Shown: one piece after another, positions 1-17,600 of the stretch
Layout: each line of letters begins with the position of its first letter
Numbering within the stretch: the stretch's first letter is position 1
Origin: Sanghuangporus weigelae
Taxonomy: Eukaryota; Basidiomycota; Agaricomycetes; Hymenochaetales; Hymenochaetaceae
DNA: 64,000 bases
Assembly (NCBI GenBank): GCA_033182465.1
Contig: CP137323.1
Coordinates: forward strand, 1,798,001 to 1,862,000
Direction: 5' to 3'
Made by a program: the position numbers and the translations under genes
Notes under the pieces: generated by a model
Database searches by the model: none
What the model was told of the DNA's origin: nothing
What the model saw: only the letters and a program-made list of their open reading frames with translations

Positions 1-2
1 AA

Positions 3-1146
3 CATAACACATGGATATATGAATACCCACCGCCGAATACAAACATAGTGGGATGCAGATTTGTCTATAACATAAAATACAAAGCAGATTCCACAATCGA
101 AAAATACAAAGCACGATTAGTAGCCCAAGGTTTTAGTCAAATTGATGGAATAGATTATTACTCGCAAGACACTTTTGCACCCGTCGCGAAGTTATCAACA
201 GCTAGGTTATTATTACATTGGGCAGCGGCAAACGATTATGAAATACATCAAATTGATGTAAAATCCGCTTATTTATACGGAGAATTAAATCAAGATGAAG
301 TCATCTACATGCGTACACCGCCAGGAAATTTTTGTAAAGATATTAAACCTGGCCAAGCATTAAGATTAAAAAAGGCATTATACGGATTAAAACAATCAGG
401 AAGAAGGTGGTATAAAAAAATAAATGATATACTTAATGCAGCAGGATTAACAAGATCTGCTGAAGATTATGCCGTATTCTATGATAAATCGATATTCAAA
501 CCGAATTTAATAACATTCATGCATGTGGATGATATAACTATAATAAGTCAAAATATTAATATAAAGAATGACTTAGTCACGAAGATACGAAAATTCGTTA
601 ATCTAACAGACAATGGTGAGATCCATTGGTTATTAGGAATAGAAATGAAGAGAAACCGTCACGATCGAACAATACTATTAAGACAAAAGAAATATATCGA
701 AGACATAACACTTAGATTTAATATTGAAACTGAAAGATTACGCCAAACTCCAATGGCGCCAGGAAGCAGATTAAAATCAAGCGACAATACAAGTTCACAA
801 GAAACTAAATCGTTATTTATGAGTTTAGTCGGATCACTCCGATATGCTGCGGATGCAACTAGGCCCGATGTAGCTTATGTTGCAGGACAATTAGCAAGAC
901 ATTTACATAATCCTGATGAAACACATGTTAATGTCGCTAGATATGCTTTATCATATTTAAACACAACCAAAAACAAATGGTTAAAACTTGGAGGCAAATA
1001 TCCACTAATAATAGATGGTTATTGCGATTCAGACGGTGCGGTAACAGAAGGCTATAAAGCTATTAATGGATATATATTCACCATAAGAAATTCATCATTT
1101 TCGTGGTCATCAAAAAGACAAGATTTGGTACCTGCATCAGTATATG
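3..1146 (+). CDS. Ty1/copia pol fragment: reverse transcriptase and start of RNase H, both ends missing
   Basis: The frame is open from the left window edge, so the protein begins outside. It carries the copia-type reverse transcriptase (RVT_2): a KARLVAQG motif, TFAPVAKL, the IDVKSAYLYGEL segment with a catalytic Asp, LKKALYGLKQSGRRW, and an HVDD active-site box in place of the usual YVDD. After that come the RPDVAYV..LARH segment and the start of the Ty1-type RNase H (a DSDGA Asp segment and FSWSSKRQ). The frame is cut at 1146 by the gypsy LTR, just before the expected EAEY motif of RNase H; the last codons of the longer open frame are LTR sequence. The DNA is AT-rich compared with the host genes. 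This was a retrotransposon polymerase and is now a broken fragment. The matching 3' half is not found on the other side of the gypsy element. Confidence 0.9.
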
Positions 1147-2658
1147 TGTTAGGGAGTAGGCCCGGGGTTACACCGGTTTGATCCTTTTGCCTAAGCAGCG
1201 GTGTGTTGTGCAGAGGTGATCTTATCTACCCACGTCTGGCTGTACCACGCGGTCCCTTACTAGCCTTCCTAGTCGCGGTCCGAGTTATGGATGCTTTCAG
1301 ATACGAGGTAATAGTAAAGCAGATTGGGATTTCCAAGAGGCGTGATAGTACAAAGCACACAGTAATAGCTCGCTGTAGGGCAAGCTTTACACCAGTGTGT
1401 TAAGAGGATCGAAAGATGGGGAAATGAGGGCCTAATCCTACAACTATTTATGCTCCCAGATATTCCATTTTCCGTCCTATTTCTTACTCATCCTGTCTCC
1501 ACTTTACTCCACTTTCCTCCACCATTACATCTGTTCCTTTGTCATCCTGCTGCGCTTCGCTCCACTTTGCTCCAATCTTTGTAAGGTCGTCTCCACTATG
1601 ACAGAATTCTTTGGAGTTGCTGACTGAGACAATAGAGGTGGTGCTCCGATATGGAATGCTCCACTGTCAGTACTCCATAACGATGTCATTGCCGTCATTG
1701 AGTGGCATCTTTGCTCTTGGAGCGATGTAGGCTGCTCGGTATGTGATTCTTCGGAATTCATCTCGAGGTCCAGCGAGGGTAAGCATAACTCGCACGTCAG
1801 TGTTAAGGTGTCGGGTCGGTGTAGAGTATGGTCCAAGGCATATCATGAACTGCATAAGCTCTGCTGGTGGGTTCTGCTGGGTTCTGGTGACTAGCCATGC
1901 TTTGCCTTCGTATCGTATATCTCGAATGTAGCGCCATATCCTTCGTTGTATAAGGAGTTGTAATTGCTTGGTTTCCAGGTTCGCATCTCTCGGTAAATAA
2001 AGGTTTGCCTGTATCGTAGATGCTGGACATGGTGTGTGCAACTCCGGTCTATACCATCCAATCATTCTCCAAGTTATCGGGTTCGCAGTTCGAGGGGTCC
2101 GAGTTGTGATCGTGAGTTCCTCTCGTTTCTTGGGTACTATTGGGCTTGGTGGATTGGAATGCATTGTATCCTGAAGGTGTCGCTCGGTTTCGATGTGACA
2201 GTCACGCGTACCAACCGTTGCCGTGCATACTAAGTAGTATACTTCATAAAGGACCATGTAAACTCGTGCACAGACTTGACAGTGCTGAAATGCCAGTGAG
2301 GTCTCCATAAACCTTATTAGCCTTTAGCCTTTTAGCGTTTAGGCTTTAGTAGTTGTGCTTCTGGACTTCTAAGAAGTTTGATCGCTTCTTTTGATCGAGG
2401 TCGCTCTGGTTGCTTGGTCGGCGGCGTTAGAGTGGTAGTCCGCGGTAATAGGCGGTCGGCGGTGTTAGCTGTTAACGGGATTACGTATCCGCTTCGGTGC
2501 TTCTAGCGCTCGGGTGGTAACGGGTTACTGTTGCCTAGGCCGCTCGATTGCTTGGGCCTTTGATAGCTGGCTTGGTTACCGGTCGCGTTTGGAAAGCTGA
2601 TCGTGTAGATCTGTTGATCGTGTCGATCCTGATGCGAGTTTTTGAGCGGATCCTTTCA
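1147..2658 (-). repeat. 3' LTR of the gypsy element
   Basis: Direct repeat of 11925-13436. On the minus strand it starts TGAAAGGATCC at 2658 and ends CCCTAACA at 1147. By homology with the promoter map of the other LTR, U3 runs from 2658 to about 1418 and R plus U5 from 1417 to 1147. The left edge joins directly to copia pol coding sequence. Confidence 0.95.
1667..2308 (-). CDS. 213-aa ORF inside U3 of the 3' LTR, function unknown
   Basis: An intact ATG-started frame lies wholly within U3. It has no recognised domain. The N-terminus is hydrophobic and Cys/Tyr-rich (residues 5-35), followed by a Pro/Arg/Thr-rich middle and a C-terminal half with regular charged and aromatic spacing (VRVMLTLAGPRDEFRRITYR). 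Because it lies upstream of the predicted transcription start in the 5' LTR but inside the body of the 3' LTR, the genomic RNA would carry it as its last ORF, as MMTV sag and lentiviral nef do; that comparison concerns position only. A 642-nt open frame in U3 can arise by chance, so coding is plausible but unproven. A second exact copy is at 12445-13086. Confidence 0.45.
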   Translation of the reverse strand: METSLAFQHCQVCARVYMVLYEVYYLVCTATVGTRDCHIETERHLQDTMHSNPPSPIVPKKREELTITTRTPRTANPITWRMIGWYRPELHTPCPASTIQANLYLPRDANLETKQLQLLIQRRIWRYIRDIRYEGKAWLVTRTQQNPPAELMQFMICLGPYSTPTRHLNTDVRVMLTLAGPRDEFRRITYRAAYIAPRAKMPLNDGNDIVMEY

Positions 2659-2673
2659 CTACACCCCCCCTAA
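2659..2673 (-). other. Polypurine tract for plus-strand priming
   Basis: On the minus strand the sequence directly upstream of the 3' LTR reads TTAGGGGGGGTGTAG, a purine-rich run with seven consecutive G, ending at the LTR boundary (2658). Position and composition fit the gypsy PPT. Confidence 0.75.
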
Positions 2674-2782
2674 GATGAACTTTCGGAGAAATGTTCATCC
2701 TAATCCGTGAGAAAGCTCGGATAAAGGGTCGCCTAGTGATGGTTGATTTTTGCTATCAAACCATCATCATCTCTGCTCCAAA

Positions 2783-3098
2783 ATGTCGAAAGTCGCCGCT
2801 GCTGTTACTGTTTTTGTCGTTATTGTCGCGATTTTCGGCATAAATCATTGGATTTTGGAGCGTAAGAGGCGTGCTCAGGTAAGTGATGCATGCTCTGTGC
2901 CGTTTCGAGTTGTTAATCATCCTCTAGGAGGCTGACTTCGAAATGCAATCGTTCCAGCGCGATGTTACTACTGTCGCGCTTCGAGTTCACCTCGCGCTCG
3001 GTTATGACGTTGAGGTTATCGATCCAGTCGTCGAAAATGCAGGTATTGCTTCGCAGGAACGTCGTGAAAAGGGTGTCTGGGAAGACATTGACTTGTAA
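2783..3098 (+). CDS. Small spliced gene on the strand opposite gag-pol, 78-aa single-pass membrane protein
   Basis: Two exons: 2783-2878 and 2958-3098. The 79-nt intron 2879-2957 has a GTAAGT donor, a CTGAC branch-type site 25 nt before the acceptor and a CCAG acceptor. The intron is phase 0, contains in-frame stops and joins two frames into one 78-codon protein. Residues 4-22 form a hydrophobic helix (VAAAVTVFVVIVAIFGI) followed by basic residues (ERKRR), the pattern of a membrane anchor with a positive cytoplasmic flank. The second exon is hydrophilic and acidic at the end (VWEDIDL). It starts 125 bp inside the 3' LTR boundary, beside the PPT, and runs towards the 358-aa ORF. I recognise no family. 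An in-frame TTG lies 33 nt upstream of the ATG; I chose the ATG. Confidence 0.6.
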
Positions 3099-3637
3099 AG
3101 GGTGGTGGGACGGGATATGAATATGAAATGTGCATCATGTAAAGAATATGACGCAATTGAAAGTGATAAGAAAGAAATCATAAAGTCGTTAATGAATAAG
3201 TTTTATACCAATTTGGGAGTGAAGTTCCAGGTGTTTACCTACGGCTCTTCAACCCCCAAATGGAGTTTTTCGAAGAAAGAGTGTAATTGGAGTGCCTTTC
3301 AGCGTGAAGGCACATCCTAGCATGATGCAAGGGAGTGACTTCACGTAAACTTTTGGCTTCTCCGTTGCATAGAGGATAATAAAAGGTAGGCATAATCTGC
3401 TAATTCGGAGCCGGCACAATAAAACAATATACAAAATGTCTAGGCCCTTGTAGGTTCTTTGACACTTCTGCATAGTGCTTCATTTGTGCTGGTTGGCCGA
3501 ATAAGCGTGAAATAAAGAGGTGCATAAAGCATAATTTGGTCGGATGTGACCATAAATATCATAAGGTAAGAATGAAATGCATAATTGACCATGTCGGGTC
3601 ACGATATGGGAAAGGGGTTGCATAAAAGAAGAGTTGT
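3099..3637. other. Gypsy element interval with no supported gene
   Basis: AT-rich stretch between the small plus-strand gene and the 358-aa minus-strand ORF. It holds only short overlapping frames (for example 3102-3320 +, 3249-3473 -) with no recognisable content. It is probably the facing 3' untranslated regions of the two convergent units. Confidence 0.5.
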
Positions 3638-4714
3638 TTACAAATCTTCGGATTCTTCAGCCTCAGGTGTAGTCTGGGCCGAGTTTGCTGGGGTATATAG
3701 TTCCTTACTTTCACCTTCTTCGCTTGATTCTGTATCGTCGGAGTGTATGTACATGTCCTCCTGTTCTGACATAGTAAGCATCTCGTCCGGTTGGTAGAGT
3801 TCGTTCGGGTACTGGTAGACTGAGATCATCAGATCTTCCAGCAATGGGTGTCGTGTAGCCTGTAGTTTTTCTCTGGCTTCTTCCTCTCGGTTGTTGAGTT
3901 CCATAAGGTAATGAGGGTCGTAGTTAACCTCTTTGCCTTCGACTATGTGGTGCTCTATGGCATCGAGTGGTAGCTCGTCCGTAGTAGAGTTCCTCGCTTC
4001 AATAACAGTTCGGTACCTCGTTCCTTCGTAATACTTCGTCATGTTGAGTACTGTCATGAACTGCATGGTGTGGGATGCATAGAAGCCCGTCTGGTCGGCT
4101 ATGTATATGATGTACTTCATCGCATCGATGCTCATCGGATGATAGTGACTCCATCGCATCATTCGGTTAAGAATTGCGGTAGTCATGTCTCGTCGGTAGG
4201 CGCAAATTTGAATTGCCGAATGATAGATGCCCATGATGTTCTTGTATGTCGTTTCGTGCCTAAAGTCGATCTTGCCTCGGTGTAAGGCCTGTGTTTCGAG
4301 TTCGATCGCATAGGTTAGAAATGCATCATCATTGAGTCGGCGTAATGCTGCGTCTCGAGGGTTACTGAGTTTGAATAACCACTCGTCTGAGTGATTCGCC
4401 ATCATAAGATGGGGTATTTCGTCTCGGTTGTGGTGGACTGCGTTCCACTTGTCGAATAGATCATCGAAGTACTTCCCTGGGCATAGGGGTACAATCTCAT
4501 CTTCGTAGTTCTCTTCGTTGAATCGGTTGCACAGCTGTGGCCATTGATAACGTTCGGTCGGTGGCCTGAGTGTAAATGTCCATTCTGGTGCATCTTCTGG
4601 TTGACAGAATGCATGTAGCTCGTCGAAGATAGGCATAGCTGAGTAGTGGTTCGCTTGTAGTGAAGTAGAGCTGTTGAGATTCGAGTTGTTGTTCCTTAGC
4701 TCGAAGTTCTCCAT
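3638..4714 (-). CDS. 358-aa accessory ORF downstream of pol, function unknown
   Basis: ATG-started and intact, 175 nt after the pol stop, in the position where env sits in retroviruses. There is no signal peptide, no transmembrane helix and no zinc finger, so it is not an envelope glycoprotein. The N-terminus is Asn/Ser-rich (first 25 residues); the middle (about residues 40-260) is rich in Trp, His, Tyr and Met and looks like a folded helical domain (for example WLFKLSNPRDAALRRLNDD); the last 60 residues are Ser/Glu/Asp-rich. It must be translated by reinitiation or from a spliced or subgenomic RNA; I could not identify a splice pair. I recognise no family. Confidence 0.65.
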   Translation of the reverse strand: MENFELRNNNSNLNSSTSLQANHYSAMPIFDELHAFCQPEDAPEWTFTLRPPTERYQWPQLCNRFNEENYEDEIVPLCPGKYFDDLFDKWNAVHHNRDEIPHLMMANHSDEWLFKLSNPRDAALRRLNDDAFLTYAIELETQALHRGKIDFRHETTYKNIMGIYHSAIQICAYRRDMTTAILNRMMRWSHYHPMSIDAMKYIIYIADQTGFYASHTMQFMTVLNMTKYYEGTRYRTVIEARNSTTDELPLDAIEHHIVEGKEVNYDPHYLMELNNREEEAREKLQATRHPLLEDLMISVYQYPNELYQPDEMLTMSEQEDMYIHSDDTESSEEGESKELYTPANSAQTTPEAEESEDL

Positions 4715-4889
4715 GTTTTATACCATCTTGTTGGTATGTCGGCGATGTCTTGCCTAATTCTTCTATCTCTGCTCTCGCTTTGGTGTGCCACATTGATGTC
4801 ATCGCTTAGTAAGGTCGTTGGGGACCTTACTCATCGTCTCTATTGTGGATCCATAAGCGGCTCCATCGGGTGGAGTGCATGTGATGCAA

Positions 4890-7800
4890 CTATTGCCTAA
4901 CTCGTTTTCGTGCGGCGATCCATTGGTTAAGGTTCGATGGCTGGATTGCCTGAGGATACTTTTTATGGAATGCTTCGATCATTTGATAGGAGTTCTTGAG
5001 GTTGTCAAGTGGCTCCCATGTTCGCTCCTGGTATCCTTTCCATTGGATAAGGTATTGGACCTTGCTCCGATGACGTCTTGTATTATGAATCGTCTCCACT
5101 TCGTACTCTGCTTCTCCCTCCACTTCAATAGGTGGTGGTTCATCCAAAGTGGGTCTTCCAGGGTATTCCTTTCGTTTGTAAGGCCTGAGAAGACTCGCAT
5201 GAAACACTGGGTGGATCGGAAGGGTTTCGGGTAAGCGTAATCTGAATGACACTTGTCCGACTGCCTTCTCGACTTTATAAGGCCCTGCCCATTTCATTGC
5301 AAGTTTCTTCGTTGGTTCCAATCGACTGAGATTCCTCATGTCTAGTAACACTTCGTCTCCCGGCTTGTACTCTGGCAGTTTGCCTCGATGCAGGTCTGCA
5401 TAAAGCTTCATTGCCTCATTCGCTTGCCTAATCGAATTATAGGCTTCTTGCTGTACTTGTCGAAGCTCCTCTAGGTGATTTATTGCTTCTGGGACGTTTG
5501 AATCACCGGTCTCCGCAACGTCCAGGTGAGGATGCCATCCATACAGTGTATAGAATGGTGACTGATGTGTAGTACTGTGCTTCCTGTTGTTGTAGGCGAA
5601 TTCTGCTATATCGATGTACTCTGCCCAATCTGTTTGTCGGTAGGACACATAGCAGCGTAAGTACTGTTCAAGCTCTTGATTTAGTCGCTCGGTTTGACCA
5701 TCGGTTTGTGGATGATACGCTGTACTAGTTTTCCAATCGACATCGATGAGTCTGCAGAACTCCTTGAGGAATTGCGCGGTGAAGTTGCTACCTCGGTCGG
5801 AGATTACTCGTTTAGGGGCCCCGTAGTATTTGAAGACATGTTGGCGGAACAAACGTGCCAACTGCTTAGCATTGGGTATTCCTTGGCAAGGAATGAACTT
5901 CCCCATTTTAGTGAGTTTGTCCACTATAACGAGTATCGCACTGTAGCCTTCATTGCTGACTGGTAAGTCGGTAATCAGGTCACAGGTTATGGTTTCCCAT
6001 GGTTGATGTGGTGCCTCCAACGGTTGGAGCGGCGGATTTCGAAACTGTCGAATCGGTTTTGCACGCTGACATATGTCGCAGGTTGCGGTATATGCTCGGA
6101 TCATTTCTTCCATCTTCGGCCAATAGTATGATCGCTTTACAAGCTCTATGGTCTTTTCTGCTCCTGGGTGGCCTGCAAGTTTGTGATCATGGCGCCTTCG
6201 GATTAGCAACGCTCGTAGATTGGCGGACGGCGGGATATATAATGCATTGGTTACGTAGTGCAAGCCGTTCCTGTAACTGTAGCCGTTGCTCTGCTTGATC
6301 GCCTGAATTTCCTTCTTAGCCTCCTCGGTATTGTAGTTCCTCTTGATCGTTCGGATAATAGGATCAGAGATAGTGACCATTTCAGTTTCTAGCTTGTATA
6401 GACCGTTGATCTCTGTGCGTCTCAGTGTTTGCTGCTTGATCGTATCAGGAGGTAGCAAGGTAACTCCTAAGTTGTCCTTGTCCTCTGGCATATAGTCGGA
6501 TCGTCGTGATAGCTCGTCAGCTTGGTTCTTCTTGCCTGGCCAATGGAGAATCTTGAAGTTATATCGTGATAACTCTAGTGCCCATCTTGCTTGACGTCTC
6601 GATAGATTCTGAGCTGTCATGAAGTATCGGAGGTTTGCATGATCGCTTCGGATTGTTACTGGTTCTTTGGTTCCCTCTAATAGGTGTCTCCAATGCTTGA
6701 GTGCTTCCATGATTGCTAGCATCTCTTTGTCATGCGTCGGATAGTTTCGTTGGGTGTTCGTTAGAGTTTTCGACATGAAACCTAAAGGTCTCAGTTCTCC
6801 TTGGTTGTCTTCTTGTTGTAAGACTGCACCAATCGCTACATCGGATGCGTCGGTTTCCAATGTGTATGATTTGTCTGGCTTTGGCATTGCCAATGCGACT
6901 TCCGTTTCGAATGCCTTCTTGATACTTTCGAATGCCTTGTCTTGTGCCTCTGCCCATATGAACTTGCGATCCTTTTTGATAAGGTCGCCAATAGGTGCGA
7001 ATGTATCGGCATAGTTCCTGATGAATCTTCGGTAGAAGTTACAAAATCCTTGGAACTTTCGAACTTGTCGTTTCGTCTTTGGCACTGGCCATTCGTGAAT
7101 AGCTTTGAGCTTATAAGGATCCATCTGGATGCCTTTCGTTCCTACTACAAATCCCAAGTAGTCGAGCTGGGTTTGGAGGAAGTGACATTTCTCGATTTTG
7201 AGGTAAATGTCGAGCTCTCGGCATTTCTGTAGAATTGCCCTGAGGAGTTTCCAATGTTCCTCTTCAGTTTGTGCTTGACCAATAAGGTCGTCCAAATAGT
7301 TGAGTGCTTCTTCTGTCCTGAGCCAATATTCGAAGTTGTCATTCATGAATCGTTGGAATACTGCAGGTGAGTTCTTCATTCCAAACATCATGACCTTTGG
7401 CTTGTAGACTGCATTGCCAACTCGGAATGCTGCCTTCCACTCGTCCCCTTCTCGGATTCGCAGGTTATTGTAACCTGATCGCATGTCGAGTGTAAAGAAG
7501 AATTTTCCTTTTTCCAGTTTCTCTGGGAGAACACTCATGATCGGTATTGGGTATGGGTCTGATACTGTCGTGTCGTTGATGTCTCGGTAATCGGTTACTG
7601 CTCGTGCTCCTCCGTCTTTCTTTCCTACAAAGAAGACTGGTGCTGCTACCGGACATGGTTCATGTGGTTGAACCTTTTCAATCCATCCTTTGTCAAGTAA
7701 CTCTTTGACGTAAGCATCGAGTGCTGCCTGCTCTTCTCGTGTGAGCTTGATAATAGGCCTTGGTTTCGGTAATGGTACTCCTTCTTTGAGGTTAATCGCC

Positions 7801-9479
7801 ATATCCCATTTCGTATGCTTGGGTAACCTTCTTGACTTGTCAGGATCAAAGACATCTGCGTAGTCTTCTATTTCCTTTGGTAGGAGTTTTCGCCAATCTC
7901 GTTTCTGTGTTCCTAGTAGTCCTTCTGCAGCTGCCTTTTGTTGAGAATACTGCTGAGATACTGAACTCGCTTTGTTCAGTGGCTGTGAGACTTGGTTCTG
8001 CTGCCTTGGTGACCAATTTCGATTGATGTCTAGCTCTAGCTTTGCAGCGAGCTCTTCCTTTCTGGTAAGGGTAGCTGGTTGGTTGGTCGTCCTAAGACTT
8101 TCAATGTCTTCTGGCTCTATGTCGTGCATAGGAGTGTCTTCTGTTGTCTCCTGCTCGTCTTGCATCTCGATATCGCTTTCGTTGTCTGCCCATCTTGTAC
8201 GCTTCGGTGTGGGACTAGCTCCTCGCATTAACGATGCTGTTCTGGGTCGTATAATGCCTGCCACTGGCTTCTCTGGATATCGTGTCTTTCGTGGTCGTAT
8301 CCTGTACTTCATGCCCGGGTTTTCTTCTGGTGATGGCCAGAGTTCTTCATCTTCCGGCATGTTTTGCCTCAGTGGGTGTATCTTCTGTGGTGGTTGTTTC
8401 TTCCAACGTTTCGGAGAGTCGTTTATTTCCTCCTGTTCGTCTAGGCTATGCTTGCCTGTTACATCTTGTGTTTCACCTTCGGATGTCTGGTACAGTTGCC
8501 GTGCTGGGATCATCCGTCTCGGTATGTGCCTTGGTCGTCGTTGCACTATACTCGTTCCTTGTGGTGCCTGTTTTTTCCATCGCTTGGGAGTGTAGTTTAT
8601 TTCCTCCTCATCTCGATGATGCTTGTTTGCCGTTTCCTGTTGTGGCTGTTTCGTTGCAGAGTCTGGTATATTTTCCGTGCTCGGACTCTTCACTTCTGGC
8701 GTCTGTTTTGCCTGTTCCAGTCTTGGTGTTGCTGGTCTGGTTTCCGGCTTCGCTTGTGGCTTCGTTTCGTGAGAGTGTCCGTTGTTGTCTCTCCTTGGCG
8801 CAAATATTATTCCTGGTGCTCCAGAGTGTCGATAGTTGTCTCTGTCCTGAGCCTGTTGCTTCGTGTTATGCCTAGGTCTTGTCTTGTCAGGTTTGCCTTT
8901 CGTTTGCCGTTTCCGTTTGCGCTTCCTGTGCCTTCGCTTCTTGGTAGCTCGTATGACGTTGAGCTCGAATGGTATCGAATTACCATTGCGATTCCATACT
9001 TGGTTCTTCCAATCAATTTCGGGATTGACTTTGGCCAAATAGTCAATTCCTAGGATCACTTGATCCTGTCCTGTGGTTGCTACTGCCAACGTTTGTGGCT
9101 GCGGTTTAGGTCCATCAAAAATTAATGTGTAGACTTCGTGCGTGATTGCTCCTCCTTGGTTGGGACTTCCATCCGCATTATTCAAAGGTTGAGGGTGATC
9201 AAGCCTCTTTTTGAATAGGCTGTAATGTCGTACCAAGTTGGGGTGTATCGTGCTGCATGTAGCTCCGGAATCGATTAACGCTTTGACTGCTAGGGTCTTT
9301 GTTCCAACCTTCACTCGAATAGGTAATCGGGGATGCAATGCTTGTATTGGCAATCGCTTATTGTACATCGGTTCACTGGGGTTGAACCCAGGAGGTTTGA
9401 AACACTGGTTGTTGAAACCTTTCTCGTCACCCTTGTCACACTCACATCGCGCAGTCTCGTTCGATGGAGGTCTTAATCT
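4890..9479 (-). CDS. pol: Gypsy pol: aspartic protease, reverse transcriptase, RNase H, integrase, chromodomain
   Basis: The frame has no own start near its 5' end that would include the whole protease leader. It overlaps the end of gag in the -1 frame and is open from the frameshift site; the first in-frame ATG is at 9368. Order, with residues counted from that ATG: aspartic protease (LIDSGATCSTIH, about 30-42); a long Arg/Lys/Pro-rich linker (about 130-480); reverse transcriptase with FFTLDMRSGY and the active site YLDD (about 540-720); RNase H with TLETDASDVAIGAVL (about 830-); integrase with an HHCC zinc site (HxxxxGHPG..CDICQRAK), Asp in CDLITDLP, Asp in ISDRGSNF and Glu in TDGQTERLNQ; and a C-terminal chromodomain (YEVETIHN..YLIQWKGY..TWEPLDNL, about 1410-1460). 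Chromodomains steer integration to marked chromatin in chromoviruses. No stop or frameshift was seen. Confidence 0.95.
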   Translation of the reverse strand, partial: RLRPPSNETARCECDKGDEKGFNNQCFKPPGFNPSEPMYNKRLPIQALHPRLPIRVKVGTKTLAVKALIDSGATCSTIHPNLVRHYSLFKKRLDHPQPLNNADGSPNQGGAITHEVYTLIFDGPKPQPQTLAVATTGQDQVILGIDYLAKVNPEIDWKNQVWNRNGNSIPFELNVIRATKKRRHRKRKRKRQTKGKPDKTRPRHNTKQQAQDRDNYRHSGAPGIIFAPRRDNNGHSHETKPQAKPETRPATPRLEQAKQTPEVKSPSTENIPDSATKQPQQETANKHHRDEEEINYTPKRWKKQAPQGTSIVQRRPRHIPRRMIPARQLYQTSEGETQDVTGKHSLDEQEEINDSPKRWKKQPPQKIHPLRQNMPEDEELWPSPEENPGMKYRIRPRKTRYPEKPVAGIIRPRTASLMRGASPTPKRTRWADNESDIEMQDEQETTEDTPMHDIEPEDIESLRTTNQPATLTRKEELAAKLELDINRNWSPRQQNQVSQPLNKASSVSQQYSQQKAAAEGLLGTQKRDWRKLLPKEIEDYADVFDPDKSRRLPKHTKWDMAINLKEGVPLPKPRPIIKLTREEQAALDAYVKELLDKGWIEKVQPHEPCPVAAPVFFVGKKDGGARAVTDYRDINDTTVSDPYPIPIMSVLPEKLEKGKFFFTLDMRSGYNNLRIREGDEWKAAFRVGNAVYKPKVMMFGMKNSPAVFQRFMNDNFEYWLRTEEALNYLDDLIGQAQTEEEHWKLLRAILQKCRELDIYLKIEKCHFLQTQLDYLGFVVGTKGIQMDPYKLKAIHEWPVPKTKRQVRKFQGFCNFYRRFIRNYADTFAPIGDLIKKDRKFIWAEAQDKAFESIKKAFETEVALAMPKPDKSYTLETDASDVAIGAVLQQEDNQGELRPLGFMSKTLTNTQRNYPTHDKEMLAIMEALKHWRHLLEGTKEPVTIRSDHANLRYFMTAQNLSRRQARWALELSRYNFKILHWPGKKNQADELSRRSDYMPEDKDNLGVTLLPPDTIKQQTLRRTEINGLYKLETEMVTISDPIIRTIKRNYNTEEAKKEIQAIKQSNGYSYRNGLHYVTNALYIPPSANLRALLIRRRHDHKLAGHPGAEKTIELVKRSYYWPKMEEMIRAYTATCDICQRAKPIRQFRNPPLQPLEAPHQPWETITCDLITDLPVSNEGYSAILVIVDKLTKMGKFIPCQGIPNAKQLARLFRQHVFKYYGAPKRVISDRGSNFTAQFLKEFCRLIDVDWKTSTAYHPQTDGQTERLNQELEQYLRCYVSYRQTDWAEYIDIAEFAYNNRKHSTTHQSPFYTLYGWHPHLDVAETGDSNVPEAINHLEELRQVQQEAYNSIRQANEAMKLYADLHRGKLPEYKPGDEVLLDMRNLSRLEPTKKLAMKWAGPYKVEKAVGQVSFRLRLPETLPIHPVFHASLLRPYKRKEYPGRPTLDEPPPIEVEGEAEYEVETIHNTRRHRSKVQYLIQWKGYQERTWEPLDNLKNSYQMIEAFHKKYPQAIQPSNLNQWIAARKRVRQ

Positions 9480-10561
9480 TTTCCCTGTTGCTCTTTACTT
9501 GCTAGGGATTTGCGAATGTTGTTTCGGTATTCTTCGTCATGCTTGCAAGTCCATCCTGCTGATTCGTCGCCTTTAGCCCATGCTACATGGTCGTAGTGGA
9601 CTGGCCTTCGGCAGTGTGGATCGGGACATGTTTCCTTGAAATCGATTGTTCGTGTTGTCATCGTCCTCCGTTTTACACCATTAGTCTTCTTCGGCCGCTT
9701 CGAGGAAGAACCCTTTTGCTTCCTTGGTGCCTTGCACTCCTTTGCGTAATGTCCTGACTTTTCACAGTTGTAGCATTTGCCTCCCTTCTTCGGCAAGCCT
9801 CGGAGTGCATCTACATCCATGGCGTCTGGATCTCGTTTCGTTGTTTGTACTGGTGGTCGGAAAGATGACTGTCCATTCGATTTGAATCTTGGGGTATATG
9901 TTTGACTACCCATGAGCCTTTGCCTGGCATCAGAGTTTGCTAGGTTGCTTGTCCATTCCATCCATGCATCGAGGTCGTTCTTCTCGAAAGCGTCGGGTTG
10001 TACAGATTCGACTCGTCGTTTGACCCACATGTCTAGTCCTTTGACATAGATGTACTTGAGCATCTGCTTATCCATCGTGTCTGGTGCTCGTGCTTTGAGT
10101 CGTCGGAACTCATCGTTGTACGCCCTAATGCTTGCTCCTTTCTGCTGGATGCATAGTAGTTGGAATAGGGCTTCCTGTTCTCCAATGATTGGATGTCCTG
10201 CTCGGATCCTCATCCAGTTCAGCATGTCCTTGAGTGATGCGAACATTCCATTTGTTGCAGCGATAATCGCAGGTACTGGTTTCAGTTTCCCATTGGCATC
10301 GAATGATGTTAGGGTATTCTTCTCTGCAAACCAATCGTAGCTGTCGCCTTCTAGTGCCGCAAATAGGCTCTTTGCGATCTCCTCCTCATCCTTGACTCCA
10401 TGCTGTGCCAGCTTCGAGATACATCGACTAATCCACAGATCAATATCTTCGCTTCGCTTGCCATAGTACTTCGGAAGCTTGATGCTGTGTTTAGAGAGTT
10501 GTGTCTGAAGAGTCTGTAGTTGCTGCTCCAGTGCTTGCACCTTCTGGTCGGTTGTCGACAT
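9473..10561 (-). CDS. gag: Gypsy gag: capsid with CCHC zinc knuckle
   Basis: 362 aa, ATG at 10561 with A at -3. An N-terminal coiled coil (residues 5-25) is followed by a Retrotrans_gag-type capsid (LPKYYGKRSEDIDLWISRC .. LFAALEGDSYDWF). Next comes a basic segment and a CCHC knuckle CYNCEKSGHYAKEC near residue 263, which binds RNA. A second Cys/His cluster (CPDPHCRRPVHYDH .. CKH) lies near residues 312-345. The ATG lies inside the end of the upstream 344-aa ORF (71-nt overlap, another frame), and a TAA in the gag frame 15 nt upstream rules out a longer gag. It ends right after the frameshift heptamer. Confidence 0.95.
   Translation of the reverse strand: MSTTDQKVQALEQQLQTLQTQLSKHSIKLPKYYGKRSEDIDLWISRCISKLAQHGVKDEEEIAKSLFAALEGDSYDWFAEKNTLTSFDANGKLKPVPAIIAATNGMFASLKDMLNWMRIRAGHPIIGEQEALFQLLCIQQKGASIRAYNDEFRRLKARAPDTMDKQMLKYIYVKGLDMWVKRRVESVQPDAFEKNDLDAWMEWTSNLANSDARQRLMGSQTYTPRFKSNGQSSFRPPVQTTKRDPDAMDVDALRGLPKKGGKCYNCEKSGHYAKECKAPRKQKGSSSKRPKKTNGVKRRTMTTRTIDFKETCPDPHCRRPVHYDHVAWAKGDESAGWTCKHDEEYRNNIRKSLASKEQQGKD
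9479..9485 (-). promoter_or_regulatory. -1 ribosomal frameshift heptamer G GGA AAA at the gag-pol junction
   Basis: Minus-strand GGGAAAA in the gag frame reads G GGA AAA, then GAT and the TAA stop. After slipping one base back the next codon is AGA in the pol frame, which stays open to the protease. This is the classical X XXY YYZ form, placed one codon before the gag stop. A possible 5-bp stem (CATCG/CGATG) starts about 12 nt downstream. Confidence 0.75.
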
Positions 10562-11525
10562 GATCGTAAGTGCTTATGGGCACTGCTGGTGGTGAATAGG
10601 ATGGTGGTGGTGGATTCTCTGGCGCTTGGGTTGCTACTGAACCACTTGCTGGTACTGCAGGTACTGTTGGTACTTGGATGATAACCGTTCGAGGTGGGGT
10701 TCTGAGTAAGAATGGCCTTCGTGATGCTTCTTCGTCTGAGGACACTGATTCGTCAGAACTCTGTTCCTGTTGGGCTCTCTCTCTTGGTAGAAAGTATTCC
10801 CAGCGTTGTGCTGCCTGAGCTACTTCTCGAATTCGTTGAGCGTGTTCGAGTATGTTCCTTGAGGTAGTTTCGGTTGTCTGTACCGATGTGAGTATAGCTG
10901 CGTAGGTGCGTTGACTCGACTCGATTGTTTGTCCTAGTTGGAGTAGGGCTTCTCGCAGGTTATGGATGTCCTGAACAATCCTTGGTTGATCTAGAGCTGT
11001 CCTGTTAAGCTCTCCGACTCTTGTCTCGATTGTCTGTAGTTGTTGTTCCTGAGCAGTAATCCTGTTTCGGATAGCGTTGAGCTCTCGGTCAAGTACTCCG
11101 TTTCCGTCTATGACCCGTTGATTGAGTGCCCCTGCTGCTCGATCCAATTCCAGAGTATATCTCTCTAGAGCTGCTACCTGTGCTCCAATTCTTCGAGTAG
11201 TTGTTTCGAGTGCTTCGAATCGATCTCCTACTGCTGTCGCGTATGCTCCGGTTGGTAGACTGTTTGACTGCCCCGTGTTTGCAGTTCGTTCTTCCAGTCT
11301 TTCAACCCTTTCTTGTAGCCTTCTGATCACTGGTGGATACAATATGCTGTGGTTCGTTGTCGCGTATAGTATGTCGTGATCGCTTTCCAGACTACGTAGC
11401 CTGTTGGTGATATGTTGAACTCGTTCGTCGAGGGATCTAGGTGTGAACCTCGTTTGATTATCGTTCGCCCGTTCGTTCGTTCGATGACCGTTACTTCTGT
11501 TGTTGGCGTTTCCTGATCGGTTCAT
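10491..11525 (-). CDS. 344-aa coiled-coil ORF, first ATG of the gypsy RNA, with a PPSY motif
   Basis: ATG at 11525, in a poor start context (T at -3, A at +4). Residues 1-30 are Asn/Arg-rich; residues about 30-240 are heptad-rich coiled coil (SLDERVQHITNRLRSLE, RLQERVERLEERT, LREALLQLGQTIE); then come an acidic Ser patch (SSDESVSSDEE) and a Pro-rich tail containing PPPPSYSPP. PPxY motifs bind WW-domain ubiquitin ligases and serve as late-budding motifs in retroviral Gag; whether this one does is inference. The only Met is the initiator, and no ATG occurs in any minus-strand frame between 11525 and the gag ATG. The ORF overlaps gag by 71 nt. I recognise no named family; it may be a structural partner of Gag. 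Confidence 0.8.
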   Translation of the reverse strand: MNRSGNANNRSNGHRTNERANDNQTRFTPRSLDERVQHITNRLRSLESDHDILYATTNHSILYPPVIRRLQERVERLEERTANTGQSNSLPTGAYATAVGDRFEALETTTRRIGAQVAALERYTLELDRAAGALNQRVIDGNGVLDRELNAIRNRITAQEQQLQTIETRVGELNRTALDQPRIVQDIHNLREALLQLGQTIESSQRTYAAILTSVQTTETTSRNILEHAQRIREVAQAAQRWEYFLPRERAQQEQSSDESVSSDEEASRRPFLLRTPPRTVIIQVPTVPAVPASGSVATQAPENPPPPSYSPPAVPISTYDHVDNRPEGASTGAATTDSSDTTL

Positions 11526-12195
11526 GAACTTCGTTTCTCGCCTGATGCTTCAGGGTTATTGTTCCTTGGTGCTGTTAACCAAGTAGTTCCTTTCTCGTCG
11601 AATGTAGCAATAGTGGAAGGGACTGCTGCTACTTTCGTGGTTGTTGTTTGCGTGCTCCCAACTGCAGGGCTACCAGATGCCTTTGCTATTAGGTACACTT
11701 CGTCGTTGTAGGGGTTATGATAGTAGATATGTGATTTAAGTGAATCGGGTTTGTCGTTCTCCAGGATGTGCACTTGTCCTGAGGATTCGATATGGGTACT
11801 AGTCTCGAAACTAGTGATGTCGATAGGGACTTGAGGTCGACGGTCCTCGCCTCGATAAAACACTAGCCAAGAACCTTGCCCGTGAGAGGTGGTGGTAAAA
11901 CTAGCGAGTGATCTTTCGATCCAATGTTAGGGAGTAGGCCCGGGGTTACACCGGTTTGATCCTTTTGCCTAAGCAGCGGTGTGTTGTGCAGAGGTGATCT
12001 TATCTACCCACGTCTGGCTGTACCACGCGGTCCCTTACTAGCCTTCCTAGTCGCGGTCCGAGTTATGGATGCTTTCAGATACGAGGTAATAGTAAAGCAG
12101 ATTGGGATTTCCAAGAGGCGTGATAGTACAAAGCACACAGTAATAGCTCGCTGTAGGGCAAGCTTTACACCAGTGTGTTAAGAGGATCGAAAGAT
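11526..12195 (-). promoter_or_regulatory. ATG-free 670-nt leader of the gypsy genomic RNA
   Basis: From the predicted start (12195) to the first ATG (11525) the minus strand has no ATG in any frame, while ATGs reappear just upstream of the start (12244-12246). It covers R, U5, the primer site and an open 113-aa frame (11522-11863) that has no ATG and whose stop overlaps the next ATG as ATGA. I read the leader as untranslated. Confidence 0.65.
11911..11922 (-). other. Primer-binding site complementary to the element's own RNA 5' end
   Basis: Minus-strand GGATCGAAAGAT lies two bases after the 5' LTR end. It does not match a typical tRNA 3' end, but it is perfectly complementary over 12 nt to ATCTTTCGATCC at 12195-12184 in the same LTR, where transcription should start. 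This is the arrangement of self-priming elements such as Tf1. Confidence 0.65.
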
Positions 12196-12229
12196 GGGGA
12201 AATGAGGGCCTAATCCTACAACTATTTAT
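12184..12229 (-). promoter_or_regulatory. Gypsy promoter: TATA box and start site on the self-primer
   Basis: Minus-strand ATAAATA at 12229-12223 lies 33 nt before ATCTTTCGATCC (12195-12184). The spacing is that of a TATA box and its start site, and the start coincides with the 12-mer complementary to the primer-binding site and with the upstream end of the ATG-free run. The same sequence is in the other LTR at 1406-1451. Confidence 0.6.
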
Positions 12230-12444
12230 GCTCCCAGATATTCCATTTTCCGTCCTATTTCTTACTCATCCTGTCTCCACTTTACTCCACTTTCCTCCAC
12301 CATTACATCTGTTCCTTTGTCATCCTGCTGCGCTTCGCTCCACTTTGCTCCAATCTTTGTAAGGTCGTCTCCACTATGACAGAATTCTTTGGAGTTGCTG
12401 ACTGAGACAATAGAGGTGGTGCTCCGATATGGAATGCTCCACTG

Positions 12445-13086
12445 TCAGTACTCCATAACGATGTCATTGCCGTCATTGAGTGGCATCTTTGCTCTTGGAG
12501 CGATGTAGGCTGCTCGGTATGTGATTCTTCGGAATTCATCTCGAGGTCCAGCGAGGGTAAGCATAACTCGCACGTCAGTGTTAAGGTGTCGGGTCGGTGT
12601 AGAGTATGGTCCAAGGCATATCATGAACTGCATAAGCTCTGCTGGTGGGTTCTGCTGGGTTCTGGTGACTAGCCATGCTTTGCCTTCGTATCGTATATCT
12701 CGAATGTAGCGCCATATCCTTCGTTGTATAAGGAGTTGTAATTGCTTGGTTTCCAGGTTCGCATCTCTCGGTAAATAAAGGTTTGCCTGTATCGTAGATG
12801 CTGGACATGGTGTGTGCAACTCCGGTCTATACCATCCAATCATTCTCCAAGTTATCGGGTTCGCAGTTCGAGGGGTCCGAGTTGTGATCGTGAGTTCCTC
12901 TCGTTTCTTGGGTACTATTGGGCTTGGTGGATTGGAATGCATTGTATCCTGAAGGTGTCGCTCGGTTTCGATGTGACAGTCACGCGTACCAACCGTTGCC
13001 GTGCATACTAAGTAGTATACTTCATAAAGGACCATGTAAACTCGTGCACAGACTTGACAGTGCTGAAATGCCAGTGAGGTCTCCAT
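12445..13086 (-). CDS. 213-aa U3 ORF, copy in the 5' LTR
   Basis: Exact copy of 1667-2308. It lies upstream of the predicted start in this LTR, so this copy would not be in the genomic RNA unless another promoter is used. Its content is described under the 3' LTR copy. Confidence 0.4.
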   Translation of the reverse strand: METSLAFQHCQVCARVYMVLYEVYYLVCTATVGTRDCHIETERHLQDTMHSNPPSPIVPKKREELTITTRTPRTANPITWRMIGWYRPELHTPCPASTIQANLYLPRDANLETKQLQLLIQRRIWRYIRDIRYEGKAWLVTRTQQNPPAELMQFMICLGPYSTPTRHLNTDVRVMLTLAGPRDEFRRITYRAAYIAPRAKMPLNDGNDIVMEY

Positions 13087-13436
13087 AAACCTTATTAGCC
13101 TTTAGCCTTTTAGCGTTTAGGCTTTAGTAGTTGTGCTTCTGGACTTCTAAGAAGTTTGATCGCTTCTTTTGATCGAGGTCGCTCTGGTTGCTTGGTCGGC
13201 GGCGTTAGAGTGGTAGTCCGCGGTAATAGGCGGTCGGCGGTGTTAGCTGTTAACGGGATTACGTATCCGCTTCGGTGCTTCTAGCGCTCGGGTGGTAACG
13301 GGTTACTGTTGCCTAGGCCGCTCGATTGCTTGGGCCTTTGATAGCTGGCTTGGTTACCGGTCGCGTTTGGAAAGCTGATCGTGTAGATCTGTTGATCGTG
13401 TCGATCCTGATGCGAGTTTTTGAGCGGATCCTTTCA

Positions 13437-13911
13437 CCGTGGTTCGAACGTCGAACCTCGTTTTCAGGTGGTTTATAAATAGGATAACGCGGTTGATACC
13501 GATCATGTTCGAAAGAATTGAATCAGGTACTTTCGATTGGAACACGGAGATGAGTTGGTTGTTCGTGGTCTGGCCATCGGTGTCATTAGCGGGCGGGCTC
13601 GAAACGAGATGATCTTCGAGTCCTAGTGCAAGCATGGTTGCTTCGACGCGAATAAGCCACATTTTGAAATTCGATCCGTTGTGCTGAAGTTTCTCGACGC
13701 CATCAAAGGCCTTAAACAGGTCCCTGAGGTCTAAGCCAGCGATATGAAAAACTCGAGTAGCCATTGATGAAGATGATGAGCTAGATGGACTTGAAGGACT
13801 TGGAGGTGGTGTATGTGGACTTTGGGATGAAGTTCGAGGTGCACTTATATGCGTTGGGTGTGAACTAGCTCTAGTTTGCTCACTATTATTTATCATTTTC
13901 ATTTTCTTCAT
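13437..13911 (-). CDS. Copia gag fragment, C-terminus lost
   Basis: ATG at 13911; an in-frame ATG follows a Ser/Pro-rich leader of about 49 residues. The core (FDGVEKLQHNGSNFKMWLIR, ATMLALGLEDHL) has the F.G.NF..W...ME-type start of copia Gag (UBN2/DUF4219-like), followed by a helical segment (SVFQSKVPDSILSNM). The last copia residues are RFDVRTT at 13437; the longer open frame beyond that is LTR. The zinc knuckle is missing. The ATG lies 26 nt inside the end of the preceding ORF. Confidence 0.7.
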
Positions 13912-14392
13912 CTTCTTGTTCCGTTCGGGGTTCCCGAGTTTGCGTTGATTCCGTGTCCTGAGGTATTATCTCCATTTCTTGTGGCAAATTTGTTAATGTA
14001 GTACCCGAAGGTCCGCTCACAGGTTGTCTAGGTAATTCTTGTCTTATTACTTCGCGATAAGTTTCTTCATCGTCTGAATGTGGTACATGTTCATAAAGGT
14101 ATCTATTTCTTAATTCTGTAACGGCAATTGTATTCATTTTTATATTTCTCACGATACGTAATGGCCGTTGTTCATAGAAACGCAGAGGAGCATAATGGTA
14201 AAATTTCGAGCATGACATTGAGTATTCTATTCGTCGTCTCTGTGTGCTATACCTCGTTGTAACCTGTGTCGCTGCATCTCTCTTTCCAGCCACCTGCGCC
14301 CAGTCTGATCGGTTGTGAGGATATTGAGCAGCCGGACTTTTGCCAGTCGTTCGGTATGTAGGACGCGCGGGTCGAGTTTGAATTTCGTCCAT
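13886..14392 (-). CDS. 168-aa ORF of the copia fragment, unknown
   Basis: Open, ATG-started and hydrophilic, with a basic N-terminal half (RPARPTYRTTGKSP) and a Glu/Asp/Pro-rich C-terminus (EQEDEENENDK). It overlaps the gag ORF by 26 nt and the preceding 111-aa ORF by 166 nt, each in a different frame. It could be translated as a leader ORF, or be one exon of a spliced gag; no function recognised. Confidence 0.35.
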   Translation of the reverse strand: MDEIQTRPARPTYRTTGKSPAAQYPHNRSDWAQVAGKRDAATQVTTRYSTQRRRIEYSMSCSKFYHYAPLRFYEQRPLRIVRNIKMNTIAVTELRNRYLYEHVPHSDDEETYREVIRQELPRQPVSGPSGTTLTNLPQEMEIIPQDTESTQTREPRTEQEDEENENDK

Positions 14393-14562
14393 GTTGTTAC
14401 GATTTCGACGCGCGTTGGACTATGTTTGATAACGTCGGTGTCGAAGATATTGTAGTCGTATTTCCAAAAATCGACAAACTTGTATGTTCTGGTGTATACG
14501 TGCGTCGTATCGACGAACGTCAAATCCGAATATCTTTTGTTCGCAGGGTTATCAAGGCTCAT
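14227..14562 (-). CDS. 111-aa ORF starting in the copia primer site, unknown
   Basis: The ATG is part of the primer-binding sequence itself. The product is rich in aromatic and Thr residues (VYTRTYKFVDFWKYDYN) and has a basic end. It is the first ATG after the 125-bp LTR. I recognise no domain; coding is uncertain. Confidence 0.35.
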   Translation of the reverse strand: MSLDNPANKRYSDLTFVDTTHVYTRTYKFVDFWKYDYNIFDTDVIKHSPTRVEIVTTWTKFKLDPRVLHTERLAKVRLLNILTTDQTGRRWLEREMQRHRLQRGIAHRDDE

Positions 14563-14570
14563 AACCTTTT
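14556..14570 (-). other. Copia primer-binding site for an initiator-Met half tRNA
   Basis: Minus-strand GGTTATGAGCC, a few bases after the LTR end, is the complement of the anticodon stem-loop of initiator tRNA-Met (GGCTCATAACC). Priming from that internal half-tRNA site is known for copia and several fungal Ty1/copia elements. Confidence 0.75.
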
Positions 14571-14574
14571 AAGA

Positions 14575-14699
14575 TGTTGAGCTCACGGTGCCTTCAGTAT
14601 GAGGGCATACGTACGGTAACGAGAGAACGTTCGTTCTTATTATACACTGACCTTCCAGAGGTCTTATATACTACTGATACAGCACGTGCTAATGTTACA
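14575..14699 (-). repeat. Short copia LTR, 125 bp
   Basis: Minus strand starts TGTAACATT and ends CTCAACA, giving TG...CA ends, and contains a TATATAAG box at about 14672-14665. No second copy is in the window, so the outer boundary rests on end motifs and on the position of the primer site. Confidence 0.6.
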
Positions 14700-17600
14700 T
14701 AATACGATTATATTCTAATAGATATATTGCTTTCTGCTTTCGACTATTCGTGACAGTTATCAGGCAAGATCCATATTCCATGAACAAACAACTAACTTCG
14801 ATAAGTAATCGCACATTTTTCGTTATTATTGCTTGAAATTTGCATGACAAGACCCCTGTATTTGCTTGTATAGCCTCGTTCTTCAAGGTAATCCAGCATG
14901 AGGAATTAGGGTACGGAACATTGTCGGTCGATCCGTTTTATGTTATCCTCTACAAATCTCAAGAAAACAAAGACAGTATAGACGCAACCTAGAACAGATC
15001 GCACAACCAGGACGGGCAAGCATGTAGGATCAATAAATTGCTGCGAAAGAAAGAGAGAAGAAAATCAGCTTGTCCAGTGTATCAGCAAGATGAGATGAGA
15101 TCAAAGTTTGGGCTCGATCTGTGCACGTGATGGGCTTTTCACCCGACGTCCACGTCAGGATCGCACCCAGAGGCGTAGTTGCCGTGGAACTTCACGTACG
15201 TTTGTGTGTTCGTGTCATGCGAAAGCATCGTCGAAAGTAAGGCAGTAACTGAGGGAGAAACCCAGAGTTGCCCTCTAGACAAGATTGCCGTGCGTTTGTC
15301 ATTAGCAAGAATGGGAAACCATTTGACTGATTCTACTGGTTAGCACTTTAGAATACCGCGATCTGTCGCTGAAACCTCGGATACGGCAAGCATCTCTGAA
15401 GATTTAGCTACTGTGTGTCAAAGCCATCGTCGGAGCTTTCATTGTGCCGGGAAAACTGTTGCGAATTTCGGTAGGCAAGTTGTCTTGTCCGAAAAGAATC
15501 AGTGATACGATTAACTCTAGATTCGGCTCGGAGCTGCGATGCCCTTACTAGTAAGGTTACTTCCATGATCTTGAAGGTAAGTTCGCATATTCTCAGGTAA
15601 CATGATACTGGGACACAGTATTTCTTGCAGATCTACTTCGGTGTCTTCTGAGTCATTTGTGGTACTTGCGGCAGTCATCTAAACTAGAACTACTGACTGT
15701 TCCTGCATCAAGATGTAATTAGCTAATCGAATTGGTGGATCCCGGTCACCAGAAGTTTCCCTCGGGCGTATCAGTTGCTACATTGCCTCAACACAGCCCA
15801 AATAACCAAACGTATCCTCGGCGTGGGCTAGTATTCTTGCAATTCGAAATTTCTATGAATCACTGCCGTCGAGAAGTAACGTCGTAGATAGTCCAAGAGG
15901 ACACAATTAATATCACAACCGTTGGAGAATCGATGGCCAGAAAACTGGAGGACTCCACTTAGAGGATTCCCTTAAAATCTTCTTACGGATTTTTCTCCTC
16001 TGAAGCGAAATACAGGTTCATCATGTTACAGGCGCCTGGTCACATTGTTTCAGTAAGTTTTCGTAGCTTCTCGTGAATACGCTTGGAGAAAGTCACTCAC
16101 GGTAAGAACAGAAGCCCCTAAAATTCATCCTCGATTGGGGCTCATCAACCTAAGAAGCATTCACTCGGCTAGCCCGTGGAAACTTCAAGGTACTGCAACG
16201 TATGAGAAGGTTGTATAGACGGTGATTGCATCTCACTTTGTTAATCTCTTTTTATGGAAAACATGGCCATCCGGCAAATCCTTTGCGCAGGTTTTGGCCT
16301 TCTTTTAATATTAACGGATTTTCTTCCTCTCACCCTTCGTCTCCGCATTGCGGTCGCCTAGTCAACATACCATATCTTTCGATTCCATTTTAGCAACGAG
16401 CCCAATTTTTAGTCAGCTGAACTATTATCTGAGCAATCGACATCTTGGCCGCGGACAGATCAAGAAAGATTTTCTCTGTCGGACCGCGGCACGATCTTTC
16501 GCCTTTCTAGTGTTTGAGTCGCCATTATCCATCTGAAGTTAGTAGCTAGAAAAGCTGATGCGACGAGAACCACATCAAACCAAGACGAAAGGAGCATTGG
16601 AAACTCCGGGAGACGGCTACGCTGTTCAGTGATGAAGGCGTCGTTTAGTTGAGAAGTCGTACTCCGCCACAGGAACAAGGATCATAGGCTTTGATCCAAA
16701 GCAAGAGTATCATTTGTTCATACGTCTCCACGACTCGAGGATATCAGAGTCAACGAGGAGACTCATCCTAGATGTCGTTCGTCTCTATGGTGTAAGATGT
16801 GTGCAGCCATTTCAATCTCGATCTCGTCAGGAGCACGCGAGCCCATGAAATTGTGAAATTGCTTATTGGTAAGTATCTAAGTATGGCGGTTCGGCACCCG
16901 AAGGAATATGCAAGGCCTATGGCCGCTCGTCTGTGGCGTACTCGCTTGCCACTCGCTGTCCGAAACTCTGGTTCGAGTCGTCCCACAAGAAATTTTGTCG
17001 TCGGTAGATGGTCAGAAAGAACGACTGTGAGTCATGTGGATGGTGCATTGCATCAAGAGGCGGAGAGTGTCAACGTCTTTCTCGGCACGTTCATTGATCA
17101 TCATGCTCCATCTGGTGAGTATCTGCCAGTTCGCCTCTTCTTCAAAGCTTCGGAAACGCAAGGCGCTCAGCTATGGCAAAGAAGCTCCAAATTTATTTTC
17201 CAACTAGTCATGATCATCTGCAGACTGTCCGGACTTCCCTTAGAAACGAGTTAGATACGCAGGTAGAGAGCTTCTCACGGATTGGCTTCTGAGTTCTGGC
17301 TTTATCGGCTTGACCTGGGAACGTCGTCTTCATTGGGCTCTTGCCTCGATACGCCCTAGCAACCGCGGTGAGAATTCAATTACTCGGTGCGCGAAGGCTG
17401 ACGAACATCTCTCGTGATGAGCCTAGATTTGGGCTGACCGTAGAAAAATACTGTGCTAGCATGCGGGTCTGACTCAAAGTAGTGCATAGCTGATCCACAG
17501 GACCCACTCACAGCTCTTTTCTAGCCACTTTTAACTTTCTGATTTAATTTACTAGCGCCGGACTTGACCAATTTGCGTACATCTTGCCTATTCCAAACAG

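Follow-up and report, generated by a model that had tools for sequence, protein, structure and literature searches.

The window analysed in this study is a 64,000-nt stretch of Sanghuangporus weigelae (positions 1,798,001 to 1,862,000 of contig CP137323.1, assembly GCA_033182465.1), a fungus of the Hymenochaetales within the Agaricomycetes. Its minus strand carries a long terminal repeat (LTR) retrotransposon that represents a 12.3-kb chromodomain Ty3/gypsy family, probably of Sanghuangporus and here called family A. Between the predicted 5′ end of the element's RNA and the start codon of gag, the coding strand holds a single ATG, which opens a 344-aa open reading frame (ORF1). Leaky scanning past the weak AUG of ORF1 to that of gag is the best explanation of this arrangement and is considered likely. 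It fits best because the depletion of ATG passes codon-aware controls, intact copies are nearly without additional ATGs, and ORF1 is under purifying selection. The mechanism itself is already known, while its use in an LTR retrotransposon seems to be new. The features on which this reading draws are the following:

11526..12195, minus strand: ATG-free leader of 670 nt, with 0 ATGs against a Markov expectation of 6.4
10491..11525, minus strand: ORF1, 344 aa, without methionine beyond its start and with a weak start context
9473..10561, minus strand: gag, 362 aa, with a zinc knuckle, overlapping ORF1 by 71 nt in another frame
12184..12195, minus strand: predicted RNA 5′ end and start of R, complementary to the primer-binding site
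11911..11922, minus strand: primer-binding site of the self-priming type, just inside the LTR end
12222..12230, minus strand: TATA-like box (CATAAATAG) in U3, of putative function

Start codons upstream of gag

On the minus strand, the sole ATG that precedes the gag ATG (10561) within the predicted RNA from 12195 was found at 11525, as the initial annotation had stated, and the nearest one upstream lies at 12246, outside the predicted RNA. From 12195 to 10562, base composition predicts 21 ATGs and a first-order Markov model 13, while a count as low as the one observed was reached in 0 of 2000 simulations. The annotated chance expectation of about 25 was too high because the leader is T-poor. 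The two ATG-free gaps of 964 and 721 nt, which adjoin each other before gag, exceed all others among the 2365 that the two strands of the window contain. ATG occurred at 20.1, 0.6, 32.2, 17.0, and 30.7 per kb in U3, the leader, gag, pol, and ORF4, respectively. The reverse word CAT was not scarce in the leader (27).

The depletion extends into the coding sequence of ORF1. Synonymous-codon permutation up to the gag ATG gave 5.8 expected out-of-frame ATGs against none observed (0 of 2000 permutations), which agrees with the earlier observation that the other two frames of ORF1 lack ATG over about 960 nt. ATG was the most depleted of the 64 out-of-frame trinucleotides (z −3.8, 5000 permutations), and CGT was the only other one absent despite more than 3 expected. 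The other reading frames of the same element, gag, pol, ORF4, and the U3 ORF, were not depleted under this permutation, with 24 observed against 17.7 permuted out-of-frame ATGs in gag, 49 against 38 in pol, and 15 against 12.9 in ORF4.

Intact and broken copies

ORF1 matched the genome (33.87 Mb in 13 contigs) 113 times, with 102 matches at 99-100% identity and a few copies yielding two matches. Fifty-four stretches covering 56 of these matches were examined; they comprise the 8 best DNA hits, the 18 lowest-scoring and 2 others, 1 met by chance, 20 of the best-scoring, and 5 more, and are not a random sample. Copies were called intact by ORF1 itself, a definition that excludes stops and leaves other replacements in. 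ORF1 was intact in 44 stretches, representing 34 leader haplotypes as counted (one partly covered), and broken in 10. Exactly two ATGs, those of ORF1 and gag, were present in 43 of the 44 intact stretches, the ATG-free region being maintained in intact copies. Broken copies carried 3 (L012), 5 (L018), 1 (L019), 10 (L020), 14 (L021), 11 (L022), 5 (L023), 11 (L024), 8 (L025), and 3 (L026) ATGs between 12195 and 10559 within their covered part, which is incomplete in L023, L024, and L026; in L019 the start of ORF1 is deleted.

Among distinct leader substitutions, 1 of 124 in intact copies created an ATG, compared to 30 of 211 found in broken copies only (Fisher P = 7e-6). The broken group thereby exceeds the 12.0 gains expected from its own mutation spectrum, because the 40 ACG sites of the leader turn into ATG by C-to-T change. 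In intact copies such changes had occurred at 1 of 40 ACG sites and at 8 of 49 other CpG sites; in broken ones the counts were 26 of 40 and 16 of 49 (Fisher P = 0.0085). This comparison of small counts was intended as a correction for copy age. The neutrally favoured change, ACG to ATG, is the one nearly missing from intact copies, and the broken copies provide a neutral control for selection against start codons.

In eight of the broken copies (L018 and L020-L026), most differences are C-to-T and G-to-A changes, many of them at CpG, which suggests methylation-linked decay. Inheritance of their shared ATGs from an ATG-bearing ancestor was also considered. In the 8 of 10 broken copies used (without L012 and L019), 4 ACG sites were hit at least three times against 2.5 simulated (P = 0.2), and recurrent decay therefore suffices for the shared ATGs.

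Coding capacity and start contexts

ORF1 is under purifying selection at the protein level. Distinct changes in intact copies showed a ratio of nonsynonymous to synonymous changes (N:S) of 26:49, while the neutral ratio is 2.27 (P = 6e-10; N/S 0.23 of neutral), and third positions took 51 of the 75 changes. The corresponding N:S of gag, which is fully covered in part of the copies only, was 14:49 (P = 4e-15). The reported absence of internal methionine from the 344 codons of ORF1 was verified. The ORF1 product had been described as a coiled coil, and it is probably helical and coiled-coil: both the sequence and a single-sequence structure model with helices at residues 92-175 and 180-257 point to it, the model being of low confidence (mean pLDDT 55.5).

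Upstream of ORF1, a second open frame was evaluated as a third, non-AUG cistron comparable to ORF I of rice tungro bacilliform virus (RTBV):

11522..11926, minus strand: ORF0, a 134-codon open frame without ATG, whose stop overlaps the ORF1 start (ATGA)

Its N:S of 14:10 did not fall significantly below neutral (P = 0.17) and 4 of 39 intact copies carried premature stops; ORF0 is probably not coding.

The ORF1 start lies in the context TTC-ATG-A, with T at −3 and A at +4, and the gag start in ATC-ATG-T, with A at −3 and T at +4. Many fungi are described as preferring A or G at −3 (PMC3542737). The T at −3 of ORF1 and the A at −3 of gag were kept in 39 of 39 intact copies counted, in line with the annotated weak first and strong second start. 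The frame of gag is +1 relative to that of ORF1. In Pfam, gag matched zf-CCHC above its cut-off and gag domains below theirs. Four relatives of gag were identified in the protein database, from S. weigelae (99%), S. baumii (86%), S. sanghuang (82%), and a fourth on short contigs (37%). The predicted proteins of the three named species all begin with MSTT and share this start, as chosen by their annotators.

Downstream, gag ends next to a candidate frameshift site:

9479..9485, minus strand: GGGAAAA, resembling a slippery heptamer (G GGA AAA), one codon before the gag stop

Predicted RNA start

The TATA-like box CATAAATAG lies about 30 nt upstream of 12195, and the 12-nt segment that begins at 12195 is a perfect complement of 11922-11911. 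In a predicted fold, this RNA 5′ end pairs with the primer-binding site. The retrotransposon Tf1 self-primes in this manner, the 5′ end of its RNA being complementary to a site beside the LTR. An 11-nt version of the arrangement was found in one copy each of two further families of the genome, B and C. Together, the box and the complementarity lend indirect support to the RNA start at about 12195 that had been predicted, which we infer from sequence.

Related families in the same genome

Family B (L029-L033 and L037-L042, in two subfamilies) and family C (L034-L036) share 38-43% pol identity with family A, with 43% for family C. The first ATG lay 966 nt beyond the predicted RNA start in L030, 967 and 966 nt in L032 and L033, all of family B, and 783 nt in L035 of family C. 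In the other B subfamily (n = 6), an ATG came within 93 to 394 nt in four copies, while two were free of ATG for 1164 and 1180 nt. Of the families A, B, and C, only A showed passage through a gene from which ATG is kept out.

Family C resembles the element in its self-priming arrangement (11 nt), its ATG-free leader, and an ORF before gag. This ORF has 597 aa with 13 methionines and its first AUG has A at −3. Inspected by eye, it shows an N-terminal hydrophobic stretch and a partly coiled-coil look. Relatives of it were found in S. sanghuang (54% over 97%) and, as two partial matches, in S. vaninii (8000 candidates scored). Homology between ORF1 and this ORF was not detectable (hhalign probability 2.5%).

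In family B, the gag frame of L030 (4055-4519) is open for 155 codons before its first ATG and is free of ATG in all frames. Out-of-frame ATGs numbered 0 against 3.4 expected in this stretch (P = 0.003), which is possibly a non-AUG N-terminal extension of the family B gag; its N:S of 3:2 holds too few changes for a coding test.

Translation of gag and alternative explanations

According to the leaky-scanning reading, a long RNA, whose start is predicted at about 12195, would carry ORF1, gag, and pol, and ribosomes would scan 670 nt before meeting any AUG. At the weak ORF1 AUG (U at −3, A at +4) a fraction of them would initiate, yielding a protein that is helical and probably a coiled coil. 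The others would continue through about 960 nt of ORF1 in which no frame offers an AUG and would initiate at that of gag, which is better placed (A at −3). A −1 frameshift, likely at GGGAAAA, would then give Gag-Pol, and the ORF1 protein may act together with Gag in assembly. Of the mechanisms considered, scanning to gag from the RNA 5′ end is favoured because it explains the exclusion of ATG from all three frames of a coding gene. The initial annotation had proposed one RNA that makes two proteins in a fixed ratio. This proposal is partly supported: the depletion, the contrast between intact and broken copies, and the selection on ORF1 speak for the scanning on which it rests, whereas it is what we infer that scanning caused the depletion and that one unspliced RNA yields both proteins in such a ratio.

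Several observations weigh against this reading. One intact copy, L048, has a third ATG. Measured against their own mutation spectrum (114 substitutions in 39 copies), intact copies gained 1 ATG versus 5.3 expected, a modest deficit (P = 0.03), and intact copies are younger, so that their lack of ACG-to-ATG changes is partly a lack of decay. No homologue of ORF1 was found at E <= 10 among 7267 protein-database candidates, although gag is present there. Copies of families B and C also have an ATG-free leader before their first ORF, and the part upstream of ORF1 is therefore not special to ORF1. Finally, family C, which likewise has an ORF upstream of gag, contains 28 ATGs ahead of gag. The initial annotation had held that relatives with several ATGs in this region would count against it; such a relative exists in the distant family C, the design is therefore family-specific, and the evidence within family A stands.

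The main rival is splicing of the gag RNA with most of ORF1 retained. Here, two RNAs would be made: one for gag, which lacks the ORF1 AUG because of an intron or because transcription begins later, and an unspliced one from which ORF1 is translated. What remains of ORF1 would still be a leader for gag, and hence also be ATG-free. The leader contains four donor-like motifs, of which three (12138, 12038, and 12011) precede the ORF1 AUG, with the best, CTA/GTAAGGG, at 12038; acceptors were not searched. However, an intron that runs from these donors and removes the ORF1 AUG would measure about 490 nt or more, and the ATG-free zone begins near the predicted LTR RNA start and continues unbroken across the ORF1 start. 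The T at −3 of ORF1 in all counted intact copies also matters most if ribosomes must pass it. Two RNAs are accordingly regarded as unlikely.

Even less probable are three other routes to gag: an internal ribosome entry site, reinitiation once ORF1 has been translated, or a +1 frameshift out of ORF1. The 71-nt overlap and the +1 position of gag would suit such routes, and family C must use one of them or splicing. None of them, however, depends on the absence of ATG from every frame of a region, the gag ATG precedes the ORF1 stop by about 70 nt, and the gag proteins of three species start with MSTT at this very ATG, as far as annotator-chosen starts can tell. Upstream AUGs generally lower downstream expression, and the ATG-free stretch could thus protect scanning to gag with ORF1 as a long regulatory upstream ORF whose protein is irrelevant; this is largely refuted by the N:S of ORF1 and its third-position changes, and is given very little weight. 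Chance or the composition of a T-poor, A- and C-rich coding strand is practically negligible, since the leader is indeed T-poor but the controls at dinucleotide and synonymous-codon level, like the difference between intact and broken copies, speak against it. Ribosome shunting was likewise rejected, as the leader has no upstream ATG and folds no better than its shuffles (z −0.53, 20 shuffles).

Beyond leaky scanning in family A itself, a broader scenario can be put forward tentatively, and is somewhat doubtful. A coiled-coil gene before gag would recur among the chromovirus families of Sanghuangporus (A and C), and family A would have purged its AUGs to obtain a leaky-scanning switch that fixes the dosage of scaffold to Gag, as an independent invention of the tungrovirus and badnavirus plan in an LTR retrotransposon. 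Families A and C meet the same problem in one host with different layouts, so that a single host suffices to test the question.

Layout of the element

The remaining parts of the element are the following:

11925..13436, minus strand: 5′ LTR, TG...CA, 1512 bp, identical to the 3′ LTR
4890..9494, minus strand: pol, with reverse transcriptase, RNase H, integrase, and chromodomain (Pfam), in the −1 frame relative to gag
3638..4714, minus strand: ORF4, 358 aa, between pol and the 3′ LTR, in an env-like position
1147..2658, minus strand: 3′ LTR, from LTR comparison

A repeat search and exact comparison showed the LTR pair to be identical across 1513 columns, the outermost of which (13437) precedes the TG and is probably a chance match. 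No target-site duplication was found around the identical LTRs of this copy (CACGG at 13437-13441 versus CATAT at 1142-1146), a mismatch that may reflect recombination. A target-site duplication is the hallmark of a single insertion and not a defining feature of a Ty3/gypsy family. The assignment to the Ty3/gypsy chromoviruses follows from the two LTRs and the order of Pfam domains in pol, namely RVT_1, RT_RNaseH, Integrase_H2C2, rve, and Chromo, each above its cut-off and with the chromodomain at the C-terminus; a protease match fell slightly under its cut-off.

ORF4 had no match in a Pfam search. The U3 of the LTR (12445-13086) holds a 213-aa ORF with full-length matches in LTR sequences elsewhere in the genome, one of them at 81% identity (L039). 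An Rfam search of positions 1-16000 of the window gave no match, and no relatives of ORF1 or gag were found in viral contigs. A bacterial-type promoter scan was uninformative for a fungus.

Comparison with known systems

With Tf1 and the sushi-type chromoviruses, the element shares a predicted RNA 5′ end complementary (12 nt) to a primer-binding site beside the LTR and a chromodomain that ends pol. It differs from them in its separate gag and pol frames, its extra ORFs on both sides, and its 1.5-kb LTR. Among the LTR elements met, the closest by layout is Ogre, a plant Ty3/gypsy element with an ORF of about 550 codons and unknown function between LTR and gag (PMC1142308). The likeness is one of layout as described there, with no mention of AUG depletion or leaky scanning in the text consulted (PMC1142308). 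No case of leaky scanning to gag in an LTR retrotransposon was noticed among the matches listed from the open-licence literature, which is weak evidence of absence and is in keeping with the earlier remark that no gypsy element had been described with this design. LTR retrotransposons are known to set Gag:Pol by frameshifting (PMC5902531). Leaky scanning through a 1-kb coding gene would, if true, add a way of setting the dose of a third protein.

The closest proven case is RTBV. In this Tungrovirus and in badnaviruses, ribosomes reach ORF III by leaky scanning over ORFs I and II (PMC5902531, PMC3542737). As in the element, the coding region upstream is free of internal AUG, over about 895-900 nt there and about 960 nt of ORF1 here, the first AUG is suboptimal, and the ORF for the polyprotein or Gag lies downstream (PMC5902531, PMC3542737). 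The element thus shows two traits of the RTBV type, a long upstream ORF without internal AUG and a first AUG in a weaker context than the downstream one. RTBV differs in being a pararetrovirus of plants whose leader is of the shunt type, whose ORF I starts at a non-AUG codon, and whose mechanism has been proven by experiment, while the element is a fungal LTR retrotransposon known from sequence alone, without an upstream short ORF or a supported ORF0. Caulimoviridae are not known to have LTRs or an integrase, and both are present in the element. If leaky scanning to gag is true, it would form a functional link between LTR retrotransposons and plant pararetroviruses.

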